NCBI RefSeq assembly: GCF_003115775.1
Contig: NZ_QEES01000002.1
Span: 1,922,001 to 1,986,000, forward strand
Direction of reading: 5' to 3'
DNA length: 64,000 bases
Origin: Cellulomonas sp. WB94
GTDB lineage: Bacteria; Actinomycetota; Actinomycetes; Actinomycetales; Cellulomonadaceae
In this document: positions 40,932 through 55,157 of the stretch, in pieces
Numbering within the stretch: position 1 is the first letter of the stretch
How the letters are laid out: each line of letters begins with the position of its first letter
Notes under the pieces: generated by a model
What the model saw: only the letters and a program-made list of their open reading frames with translations
Told to the model about the DNA's origin: nothing
Databases searched by the model: none
Position numbers and translations under genes: made by a program

Positions 40932-41267
40932 ATGGCACAGAAGGTTCAGGTCCTGCTCGTCGACGACATTGACGGCGGGACGGCCGACGAGACGGTCACA
41001 TTCGCCGTCGACGGCGTGACCTACGAGATCGACCTCACGGCAGAGCACGCAGCCGAGCTCCGCAGCTCGGTCGCCACGTGGGTCGGCCACGCACGCAAGG
41101 TCGGCGGGCGCACGTCGACGGCTACCGGCCGCCCGGCGCGCGGTCGCCGTGGCACGGGTGTCGACGCGGGCGCGATCCGCGAGTGGGCCAAGGCCAACGG
41201 GCACCACGTGTCCGAGCGCGGACGCATCTCCGCCGGGGTCAAGGCCGCGTACGACGCTGCGCACTGA
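40932..41267 (+). CDS. lsr2: Lsr2 nucleoid-associated xenogeneic silencer
   Basis: 111 aa. N-terminal dimerisation beta-sheet (QKVQVLLVDDIDGGTADETVTFAVDGVTYEIDLT), a basic linker (residues about 60-77), and the C-terminal DNA-binding domain REWAKANGHHVSERGRISAGVKAAYDAAH with the RGR AT-hook-like loop. It binds AT-rich minor grooves and silences acquired DNA. Strong RBS GGGAGAG. Its terminator was split by an IS. Confidence 0.95.
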   Translation: MAQKVQVLLVDDIDGGTADETVTFAVDGVTYEIDLTAEHAAELRSSVATWVGHARKVGGRTSTATGRPARGRRGTGVDAGAIREWAKANGHHVSERGRISAGVKAAYDAAH

Positions 41268-41331
41268 CCGACACGCACTGACCGATAAGCCCGAGTGACC
41301 CCGCGGCGCAGCCGATCACGGGCACACTGAG

Positions 41332-41370
41332 GACACAGCGGAGCCCGGCACCCGTCGAGGGGTGCCGGGC
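41332..41370. terminator. lsr2 terminator hairpin, 3' arm interrupted by the IS
   Basis: The left arm (41332-41353) still pairs with 41360-41370 (11 bp). The remaining 11 nt of the right arm lie beyond the IS at 43111-43121. Rejoined, the stem is 22 bp and perfect with a GTCGAG loop. It lies between convergent lsr2 and xylB and would have served both. Confidence 0.85.
41364..41370. repeat. Left 7-bp target-site duplication of the IS
   Basis: GCCGGGC, repeated at 43104-43110 on the other side of the element. Confidence 0.85.
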
Positions 41371-43103
41371 CCGACTCGTGCCACTTGCCTTAGTGACCGG
41401 TTTCGAGTCGGTTGAGGATGGCGCGGGCGGTCTCGGTGAGGTCGGGGTCGAGGGTGAGGCGTTGGCCGTTGATCTCGATGGTTGCTGAGCGTGCGGTGCG
41501 CAGGGCCTGGACGATCTTCTTGATGCTCATGCCGGTGAGGTCTTGCAGATGGCGGGCGACGGCCAGGGCGGCGAACACCACCGTCAGGTGGGCTTCGATG
41601 GCGTCGCGTTGGTGGTGGAACACGGGCCGGGCTCGTAGGTCGGACTTGGTCATGCGGAACGACTGCTCGACGTGCCATAGGTCGTGGTAGGCCGCGATGA
41701 CCGCCGCGCCGTCCATCGTGGCGGTCGGCAGGTTGGTGACGTAGCCCTTGAGGCCCGCCAACTGGCGGGCCCGGTCGATGGTGGCCTGGTCGAGTTCCTT
41801 GGTGGCTCCGGTGATCTTGAGGAACCGGGCCTTCTTCAACGGGGCGCGGCCGTCGGCGATCTTCTCGGCCCGGTCGATCATCGCGTTGATGGCCTTGTTG
41901 TCGTGCTGCTCGCGGGCGAACTTCCACTGGTAGACCACCCGCCGGGCCCGGGCCGCCTTGCCGGTGCCCATGTCCCGGGTCGATTCCAGGACCTGCCCGT
42001 CGGTGAAGTAGTTGCCGTGCCGTTCGAAGTGATCGGCCAGGTCGTAGGGGGCCCGGGTGATCCGCGAGCCGACGATGAAGCAGAACCCGGCGTCCTCCAG
42101 GGCGTTCAGGTTGCCCGCCGAGAGCATCCCGGCGTCGGCGACGACGACCAGGTCCGTGACGTCGTGCCGCTTGCCGAACGCGGTCAGTACGGGGATCAGA
42201 GTGGTCGTCTCGGCCTTGCTGCCCTCGAACAGGTGCACCTCGAGCGGGAACCCGCCCGGGTCGACCAGCAGCCCGACCTGAACCTGGGGGTCCACGCGGT
42301 GCTCCTTGCTCATCCCGACCCTGCGCAGCTCGTCCTCGTCCGGCCGCTCGAAGTGCAGCGTCGTCACGTCGTACAAGATCAGGACCGATGTCCCGGTGGT
42401 GCGGACCGAGTGCGCCCACGCGGCCCTGGCCAACGTGTCGCGGTAGTCCTGGGCCTGGCACCGGGCCAGCGACCGGAACAACGTGCGCAGGCTGACCGCC
42501 GGTGCGTCGAGTTCGTCCAGGACGCGGACGACCTCGGCCTTGGAGGTCGGCTCCACGATCCGTGCCAGGACCATCGCCCGGAACCCGTCATCGCCCAGGA
42601 CGTCGAACCCCAGCCGGGTGTATTCGCTGGTCAGGACCTTCCACAACAGGTCCGCGGAGGTCCCCACGACCCGCCCACCTGCGGCGACGGCCGCAGGACG
42701 CCCACCGGCCGCCGGCGTCGCCGGCTGCAGGAGCAGTTCCGGTTCGGCGGTCCAGTCCGCGACGTCGTCCATCCGCGCCGGGACCACCAACAGGTCCCCG
42801 AGGTCCAGGGCGTCTTGGCCTGGGGACAGCCGCTCACGCGCTACGGCCAGCAGCAACGCGAGCTCGGCATCGCTATGCGCTGACCCGACGTGCTCGACCT
42901 GTTCGACCTGCCGGCCCCGGCGCGTGACGATCTGGACCGCGACCGCTCCCGAAGCGGTGCGGACCTTGCGCACGAACCGCGAGACCACCCCCGAAGGCTT
43001 GCACGACGAGGTTCTTAGTGACCACATCGCACCCGAGCGCACAACGAAACAGCAGGTCAGCGACCCGCGCCCACCCTCGAGGACCGAACGTGGCACGAGT
43101 CAG
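41371..43103 (-). mobile_element. IS1634-like insertion sequence, 1733 bp
   Basis: Bounded by 14-bp terminal inverted repeats with one mismatch (CCGACTCGTGCCAC at 41371-41384; complement of CTGACTCGTGCCAC at 43090-43103) and a 7-bp direct repeat GCCGGGC. One transposase gene fills it. Intact repeats and ORF suggest a recent, possibly still mobile insertion. The target is a hairpin rather than a gene. Confidence 0.9.
41390..43027 (-). CDS. IS1634-family DDE transposase
   Basis: 545 aa. RNase-H-like catalytic residues: Asp in LILYDVTTLHFE, Asp in VVVADAGMLSAGN, and Glu of the YHDLWHVEQSFRMTKSDL motif (E-x6-K signature of the IS4-type families). The start ATG 43027 is the first in-frame ATG inside the right inverted repeat; the stop is 6 nt inside from the left repeat. 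Uninterrupted. It moves the element by cut-and-paste. Confidence 0.92.
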   Translation of the reverse strand: MWSLRTSSCKPSGVVSRFVRKVRTASGAVAVQIVTRRGRQVEQVEHVGSAHSDAELALLLAVARERLSPGQDALDLGDLLVVPARMDDVADWTAEPELLLQPATPAAGGRPAAVAAGGRVVGTSADLLWKVLTSEYTRLGFDVLGDDGFRAMVLARIVEPTSKAEVVRVLDELDAPAVSLRTLFRSLARCQAQDYRDTLARAAWAHSVRTTGTSVLILYDVTTLHFERPDEDELRRVGMSKEHRVDPQVQVGLLVDPGGFPLEVHLFEGSKAETTTLIPVLTAFGKRHDVTDLVVVADAGMLSAGNLNALEDAGFCFIVGSRITRAPYDLADHFERHGNYFTDGQVLESTRDMGTGKAARARRVVYQWKFAREQHDNKAINAMIDRAEKIADGRAPLKKARFLKITGATKELDQATIDRARQLAGLKGYVTNLPTATMDGAAVIAAYHDLWHVEQSFRMTKSDLRARPVFHHQRDAIEAHLTVVFAALAVARHLQDLTGMSIKKIVQALRTARSATIEINGQRLTLDPDLTETARAILNRLETGH

Positions 43104-43110
43104 GCCGGGC
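43104..43110. repeat. Right 7-bp target-site duplication of the IS
   Basis: GCCGGGC, matching 41364-41370. Confidence 0.85.
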
Positions 43111-43172
43111 TCCGCTGTGTCGTGGGCTCCGCTGTCGTGGGAAACGCTGTGTCGGCGGCGCCCCGGCCGCGG

Positions 43173-44627
43173 TCAGGCCGGGCGCGTCCCGGTGAGCTCA
43201 CGGACCGCCGCGTACTGCGCGCGGACCTGCGGGGCCGCGTCGGCCTGGTAGACCTCGGCGCTGCCGGCCGCGGTCCAGGCGGGCGGTGTCGCCGCGCCGG
43301 ACAGCACCCAGGCCGCCTGCCGCGCGGCACCGTCGGCGACGTACTCGCCGGGCGTCGGGACGGCGACGTCGAGACCGAGCACGCTTGGCGCGATGCGGCG
43401 GACCGCCTCGGACTGCGCGCCGCCACCGATGAGGAACACCCGCTGCACGGGCACCCCCTGGGCGACGAGGGCGTCGAGCCCGTCGGCGAGGGCGCAGAGC
43501 ATGCCCTCGACCGCTGCGCGGGCCAGGTGGGCCGGCGTGGTGTTCGCGAGCCGCAGTCCGTGCAGCGCCCCGGTGGCGTCGGGCTTGTTGGGGGTGCGCT
43601 CGCCCTCGAGGTAGGGGACGAGGACGAGCCCGTCGGCGCCGGCGGGGGCCGACAGCGCGAGCGCGGAGAGACCCGCGTGGTCGACGCCGAGCATCCGGGC
43701 GGCCGCGTCGAGCACGCGCGAGGCGTTGAGCGTGCAGGCGAGCGGCAGGAACGCGCCGGTCGCGTCGGCGAACCCGGTGACGAGCCCCGACGCGTCGGCC
43801 GTCGGGACGGCGGAGATCGCCGAGACGACGCCCGACGTGCCGATCGAGATCGCGACGTCACCGGGGGTGAGGCCGAGGCCGAGCGCCGCGGCCGCGTTGT
43901 CCCCGGCGCCGGCGCCGAGCGCGGGTCGCAGGGCTCCGAGGGCCGACGTCCCCGCGCGCTCGCCGGGACCGACGACGCGCGGCAGCACCGCGTCGTGGCC
44001 GAGCGCGAGCGAGAGCAGGTCGCGGCGGTAGTCGTCGGAGATCGGCGACCAGTACCCCGTGCCCGAGGCGTCCGAACGGTCGGTCGTGAGCGCGGCCAGG
44101 GCCGCCGCGGGGTCGCTGCTGCCCGGTCCGTGGCCGGCGAGGCGCCAGGTCAGCCAGTCGTGGGGGAGGGCCACCGCGGCCACGCGGGCGGCGTTGGCGG
44201 GCTCGTGGTCGCGCAGCCAGCGCAGCTTGGTCACGGTCAGCGACGCAACCGGGACCGAGCCGATGGCTGCGGCCCAGGCGGCAGCGCCGTCACCGTCACC
44301 GGTGGCGCCCAGCTCGTCGATGAGGTCGAGCGCGGACTGCGCGGAGCGGGTGTCGTTCCACAGGAGAGCGTCGCGGACGACCGCGCCGTCGGCATCGAGC
44401 GCAACCATGCCGTGCTGCTGACCGCCGACGGAGATGGCCTCGACGTCGTCCAGGCCTCCCGCGTCGGTGATCGCGACCTGCAGGGCGTGCCACCAGCGTG
44501 CGGGGTCGATCTCGGTGCCGTCCGGGTGCGAGGCGCGCCCGGAGCGCACGAGGGCGCCCGTCGCGGCGTCGCGCACGACGACCTTGCAGGACTGGGTGGA
44601 CGAGTCCACCCCGGCGACGAGCGTCAT
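43173..44627 (-). CDS. xylB: Xylulokinase
   Basis: 484 aa FGGY-family sugar kinase. The N-terminal phosphate-binding [15 protein letters not shown] (residues 3-17), [10 protein letters not shown] (substrate), and the C-terminal ATPase motif [17 protein letters not shown] are intact. It phosphorylates D-xylulose made by XylA. GGAGACC precedes ATG 44627. It is downstream of xylA, with a strong hairpin between, and its own end faces the IS-split terminator. Confidence 0.94.
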
Positions 44628-44653
44628 TGTCGGGTCTCCATCTGGCGAAAGGC

Positions 44654-44688
44654 GCGACGCCCGCACCCGGTGCGGGTGCGGACGTCGC
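44654..44688 (-). terminator. Hairpin between xylA and xylB
   Basis: GCGACG-CCGCACCC pairs with GGGTGCGG-CGTCGC with one C/A mismatch and a 5-nt loop. It could halt part of the transcripts or protect xylA mRNA, keeping XylA above XylB. Confidence 0.55.
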
Positions 44689-51620: not shown

Positions 51621-51657
51621 CGACGCCGGGCCCCGCACCATGCGGGGCCCGGCGTCG
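51621..51657. terminator. 17-bp terminator after gguB
   Basis: CGACGCCGGGCCCCGCA (51621-51637), loop CCA, and its exact complement (51641-51657). It ends the transporter operon. Confidence 0.85.
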
Positions 51658-55098: not shown

Positions 55099-55125
55099 TC
55101 AGGACGCACGTAGTCAGGACGCACT
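55096..55125 (+). repeat. 15-bp tandem duplication at the gpmA stop codon
   Basis: TAGTCAGGACGCACG (55096-55110) and TAGTCAGGACGCACT (55111-55125). The first TAG ends gpmA; the second would be a back-up stop. Confidence 0.8.
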
Positions 55126-55157
55126 GAACCCCCGCGCCGTGGGCGCGGGGGTTCAGT
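55123..55157. terminator. Bidirectional terminator between gpmA and phoU
   Basis: A 16-bp perfect stem (ACTGAACCCCCGCGCC, 55123-55138, with its complement at 55142-55157) closed by a 3-nt loop, between convergent genes. Confidence 0.88.

Follow-up and report, generated by a model that had tools for sequence, protein, structure and literature searches.

Question and locus

In the genome of Cellulomonas sp. WB94 an insertion sequence (IS) lies between the convergent genes lsr2 and xylB and splits a hairpin, and this locus raises the question whether the element selects hairpins for its insertion or met one through its ordinary choice of target sequence. The window, by which we mean the whole analysed stretch of 64,000 nucleotides, was compared with the other copies of the element in this genome, with the lsr2/xylB spacer of relatives and with copies of related elements. 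The features of the locus are given below.

40932..41267, (+): lsr2, 111 aa, convergent with xylB (ORF; Pfam PF11774 and PF23359)
41332..41353, (+): 5′ arm of the 22-bp hairpin (pairs without mismatch with the joined 3′ arm)
41343..41370, (+): residual 11-bp hairpin on the lsr2 side, its last base being the first base of the IS (predicted -27.0 kcal/mol)
41354..41359, (+): 6-nt loop (joined-flank pairing)
41360..41369, (+): loop-side portion of the 3′ arm, left of the IS (joined-flank pairing, six-copy boundaries)
41365..41369, (+): CCGGG, left copy of the 5-bp target duplication (six-copy comparison)
41370..43104, (-): IS1634-family element, 1735 bp (element of identical length at six places in the genome, 0-1 base different)
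41390..43096, (-): transposase ORF, 568 aa as listed from GTG (NCBIfam NF033559, Pfam PF01609)
43105..43109, (+): CCGGG, right copy of the 5-bp target duplication (six-copy comparison)
43110..43121, (+): outer portion of the 3′ arm, now 1.74 kb from the remainder (joined-flank pairing)
43173..44666, (-): xylB, xylulokinase, 497 aa, convergent with lsr2 (ORF; TIGR01312)

Boundaries and family of the element

The first-pass annotation had described the element as IS1634-like, and this family was confirmed by the transposase, which matches NCBIfam NF033559 (IS1634-type DDE transposase) with 365 bits at a cut-off of 100 and whose true start may be further in than the listed GTG. The residues of the YREK motif follow a spacing rule, and by eye the ORF has Y, a leucine replacing R, and E and K at the expected spacing.

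Six copies of the IS are present in this genome, each at most one base different from the window copy. In all six a C to the left and a G to the right of the element as first drawn (41371-43103) are constant and the flanks beyond them differ, therefore the element is 41370-43104, 1735 bp, with its ends one base further out on each side. By the same comparison the 7-bp duplication GCCGGGC was rejected and replaced by one of 5 bp, which was found in six of six copies: in window orientation it reads CCGGG here and TCTGG, TTAGG, TCAGG, CCCGG and CCCGA at the other five sites. Seven bases appear to match at the window site because the target had G before and C after CCGGG. The inverted repeats, given earlier as 14 bp, are present at the termini and agree at 13 of their first 14 bases, not at all 14 (CCTGACTCGTGCCA / CCCGACTCGTGCCA).

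Six other genomes of the genus gave no copy of full length; the best partial matches in them were 78% over query 56-1323 (genome G004) and 83% over about 380 bases (genome G006). The search of plasmids gave matches in 44 of 72,556 records, none of them spanning 80% of the IS. The element is a previously undescribed member of a known family, and its hit on the hairpin is an ordinary one.

Among the other copies of this genome, one (L004, G000:C2:1198434-1203166) sits where an ORF with a match to the Mutator-family transposase PF00872 ends, an IS inside an IS, and another (L003, G000:C2:1398142-1402874) lies beside a DUF3418 gene and, on its other side, by eye a few bases from an apparent gene start codon. 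Pfam gave matches for two of the ten flank ORFs of the five other copies.

The split hairpin and the empty site

When the flanks of the IS are joined with one copy of the duplication removed, 41332-41353 is the exact reverse complement of 41360-41370 plus 43111-43121, without a mismatch over 22 bp. The earlier claim that excision rebuilds a perfect 22-bp stem with a 6-nt loop was thus borne out, and the corrected ends leave it untouched since the joined sequence is the same under the 5-bp and the 7-bp reading. For the joined 50-nt hairpin a folding energy of -53.7 kcal/mol is predicted. Positions of the window sampled outside the IS (n=5577) lie in a perfect stem of at least 12 bp in 0.18% of cases and of at least 18 bp in none, so the 22-bp stem is not a chance structure. 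In the joined window sequence neither flank of the hairpin has a T tract.

Two further perfect hairpins of the window also have no T tract (17 bp at 51621-51657 and 16 bp at 55123-55157), and between the hairpin and the end of xylB, at 43113-43172, a 28-nt sequence is directly repeated in diverged form (75% identity, spacing 32).

The joined flanks were then aligned with IS-free relatives, as had been proposed along with the first reading. In G004, a genome of the same genus, locus L021 has lsr2, the spacer and xylB but no IS. Its alignment to the joined flanks is collinear, extends over 1745 nt at 90% identity and runs ungapped across the junction, and its spacer contains a stem with 19 of 21 pairs. 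The joined flanks are hence the ancestral state, and the pairing together with this empty site confirms that the IS was inserted into the 3′ arm of the lsr2/xylB hairpin. A second empty site was found in G004 for the L003 copy, with a single CCTAA; for the L005 copy no orthologous empty site was recognised among the four genus members searched. The empty-site genome also holds, on contig C127, IS fragments of 67-80% identity in both orientations within 2.6 kb (L007, L012, L015, L019), which are degraded relatives of the IS.

Conservation of the spacer hairpin

The spacer was examined in 29 relatives, which are the loci kept from a search matching 146 of 150 genomes. lsr2 and xylB are convergent in 27 of them, the other two having no xylB within the stretch examined. 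A stem of at least 14 pairs lying at most 180 nt after lsr2 is present in 27 of the 29 and in 6 of 232 control stretches taken from these loci; these controls replaced a first set (6.0% of 232 with at least 14 pairs) which ignored reverse-oriented loci and could include the spacer itself. The spacer sequences vary between relatives and the stem persists. It is long, up to 29 pairs, in L025, L041, L043, L045 and others of L021-L049 despite great sequence change, and the spacers of L021-L049 are a useful set for the study of terminators without a T tract.

Judged by its sequence and position, the hairpin is most likely a bidirectional terminator. Of the features of such terminators, the stable and GC-rich stem which relatives retain between the convergent genes is present here, and its retention in 27 of 29 relatives strengthens this reading; the T tract after the stem is a feature which is absent from the joined window sequence. 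The missing T tract on both sides would fit some other 3′ structure, e.g. an RNA stabiliser or a protein-binding palindrome, and a conserved stem between convergent genes does leave room for roles other than termination. We consider such a role unlikely, however, since 27 of 29 relatives have the hairpin between convergent genes, the sequence differing and the stem being kept, as would be expected of a shared terminator.

Possible consequences for lsr2 and xylB

After the insertion a stem of 11 bp persists beside lsr2, with a predicted -27.0 kcal/mol against -53.7 kcal/mol for the whole. Because this hairpin remains on the lsr2 side, any effect of the insertion would fall mainly on xylB. The residual hairpin may still serve lsr2 and would now also stand downstream of the transposase, while xylB would be stripped of its terminator. 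If termination is lost, transcripts of xylB would run into the transposase in the sense direction, as the transposase shares the strand of xylB. One more feature belongs to this side of the IS.

43052..43068, (-), xylB strand: weak terminator-like stem in the IS end upstream of the transposase (consensus scan; not evidence of function)

The consensus scan gave two terminator-like stems in the region, where shuffled sequences gave 0.5 (sd 0.9).

The IS might be retained here by selection, the split hairpin altering the expression of xylB or lsr2. The split does part the xylB side from its hairpin partner and leaves the transposase downstream of xylB on the same strand. Against this, the lsr2 side retains its 11-bp hairpin, a scan covering sigma-70-type promoters gave none in 41200-43250, and the six copies are at most one base apart, so that too little time may have passed since the insertions for selection to be visible; we therefore regard retention by selection as very improbable. 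What the window does offer is a clean before-and-after case of an IS splitting the conserved hairpin of two convergent genes, with one half still foldable.

Preference for hairpins or for a sequence

It had also been suggested that the target may be structure-directed, which would mean that the transposase recognises an extruded hairpin, a cruciform or a terminator and cuts in its arm. The window copy, in a perfect 22-bp hairpin of a kind rare in the window, invites this explanation, and for six copies the probability of one hit in a perfect stem of at least 12 bp is about 1% (6 x 0.18%), under a null which takes all positions as targets, which insertion sites are not, and for a site singled out for its hairpin. 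When the other copies were mapped, as had been advised for terminator hairpins, the window copy was found to be the only one of six in a hairpin. The best stems at the five other sites are 3, 4, 4, 5 and 6 bp, which is background: of the sampled window positions, 45% have a stem of at least 5 bp and 19% one of at least 6 bp. The exact-element sample consists of these six copies.

Related elements were therefore drawn into the count, with named-genome loci being the best 80 of 124 and further loci coming from other genomes. The script found 123 unique copies with both ends, and 110 of them were kept after the removal of 13 whose flanks were shorter than 12 bases or whose ends were doubtful. Stems of at least 7 bp were found at one of the 24 short-duplication sites, which include the six own copies, and this one is the window site. 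At the long-duplication junctions they were found in 2/59 and 4/59, that is 6/118 (5.1%), against 3.2% of 618 controls, a small difference towards hairpins and no clear excess. In an earlier test of 33 named-genome sites, 7-bp stems were seen at two junctions and none longer overlapped a junction. On these counts the targeting of hairpins was rejected, and we consider it very unlikely. A hairpin preference is not supported in this sample; the preference is for the sequence YCNGR.

The short duplications fit this word by position (Y in 23, C in 22, G in 18 and R in 23 of 24) and show it complete in 16 of 24. The IS1634-family element would thus have entered at CCGGG by an ordinary staggered event of 5 bp; this word matches the preferred target and lies here in the 3′ arm of the hairpin conserved between the two convergent genes. 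Most probably the hairpin was hit by chance, as YCNGR words are offered by GC-rich palindromes and the spacer is non-coding as far as known; since YCNGR is itself GC-rich and nearly a palindrome, some insertions into GC-rich stems are to be expected by chance. We consider it very probable that this is an ordinary insertion at a YCNGR word within a conserved hairpin, with no targeting of the hairpin.

Short and long duplications among relatives

The lengths of the duplications in the 110 copies fall into separate classes: 5-6 bp in 24 copies and 12-738 bp (median 83) in 59, with none of 7-11 bp and no duplication found in 27. Both kinds are possible with one element, since in genome G555 two copies of equal length and identity have duplications of 5 bp (L211) and 72 bp (L208). 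The element of genome G278 has 5 bp in five of five copies with both ends. Ends reading CTCG at bases 6-9 occur in 14 of the 24 short against 10 of the 59 long cases, counts which include the six copies of the window element and the five of G278.

In the copies without duplication the junction scores are not anticorrelated (r -0.13, with 26% of permutations as low), which gives no support for a matching deletion class; these copies may be products of recombination between copies. Eleven of the 110 copies are in loci holding N. Two loci of Brachybacterium timonense (L062 and L097, NZ_LT984895.1) carry a near-doubled IS end of 138 nt whose join holds an N; this is probably an artefact of scaffolding at IS copies.

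One-end rule in long-duplication copies

Both junctions of the 59 long-duplication copies were scored against the motif of the short duplications. The left and right scores are anticorrelated (r = -0.68, reached by 0 of 20000 permutations), and a positive score was obtained by the left junction only in 22 copies, the right only in 24, both in 5 and neither in 8, where 10.8% of background words score positive. The correlation holds with one copy per element (r = -0.64, 51 copies) and with exact repeats only (r = -0.75, 47 copies). When only 11 copies from two genomes served to train the motif and the 55 long-duplication copies outside N-holding loci were scored with it, r is -0.70, with 34 one-sided, 0 both and 21 neither. 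It is weaker in 16 hand-picked copies from few-contig genomes (r = -0.54, 333 of 20000 permutations).

Assembly artefact was tried as the source of the long duplications and set aside, as the result stands after dropping all 11 copies in N-holding loci (r = -0.67 in the 55 remaining long-duplication copies). Recombination between two nearby normal insertions was likewise rejected; it predicts the motif at both junctions, which is seen in 5 of 59.

The better-scoring junction is at either end, 30 to 28 with one of the 59 copies dropped for a short flank. At +2 the worse-scoring junction carries G in 37 of 58 copies (p 3e-6 against 0.34), a p value that overstates the effect because picking the worse-scoring junction itself removes C at +2.

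Read most simply, these results would mean that the target receives one IS end and that the second is joined to the opposite strand at some other place. Joining of both ends at one site would give the 5-bp duplication, and joining of the non-motif end 12-738 bp away on the opposite strand would give the long direct repeats. We lean towards the view that in this subgroup the ends can integrate separately, one of them, which may be either, at YCNGR and the other 12-738 bp off, on the opposite strand and without the motif. In the portions of the open-licence literature returned by searches not aimed at the rule by name, no statement of it was found. The rule makes the question of long duplications testable with existing genomes and a simple transposition assay.

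Comparison with known systems

IS1630 (IS30 type) and the REP-targeting IS elements insert in or beside inverted repeats. The window element likewise lies in an inverted repeat, but it shows no preference for inverted repeats in the sample and belongs to a different transposase family.

As described in PMC2266710, members of the IS1634 family are 1500-2000 bp long, make direct repeats of 5-6 bp, have ends C-----YT, usually lack the arginine of the YREK motif and duplicate AT-rich tracts. The window element shares with them the transposase family, the length range (1735 bp), the first base C and the 5-bp duplication. By eye its ends fit at C in position 1 and T in position 7, whereas the C at position 8 does not. 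The published targets are AT-rich, while those of the window element and its relatives are GC-rich, YCNGR; an AT-rich target is a description of the known members and not a strict criterion.

According to the same paper, IS1549 of Mycobacterium smegmatis and IS1634 of Mycoplasma mycoides make long variable duplications of 8-514 bp, for which this 2008 review states that no mechanistic model was then proposed (PMC2266710). The relatives of the window element behave likewise, with long direct repeats (12-738 bp) at 59 of the 110 copies, whereas the window element itself has 5 bp in six of six. In PMC4549789 and PMC5371812, an IS1634-family transposase of Acidiphilium is described as binding the replication clamp, so a mechanism linked to the replication fork is possible, although for the elements studied here this is speculation. 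One-end-specific integration, perhaps at a replication fork, would if true explain the long variable duplications of IS1549 and IS1634 as well.
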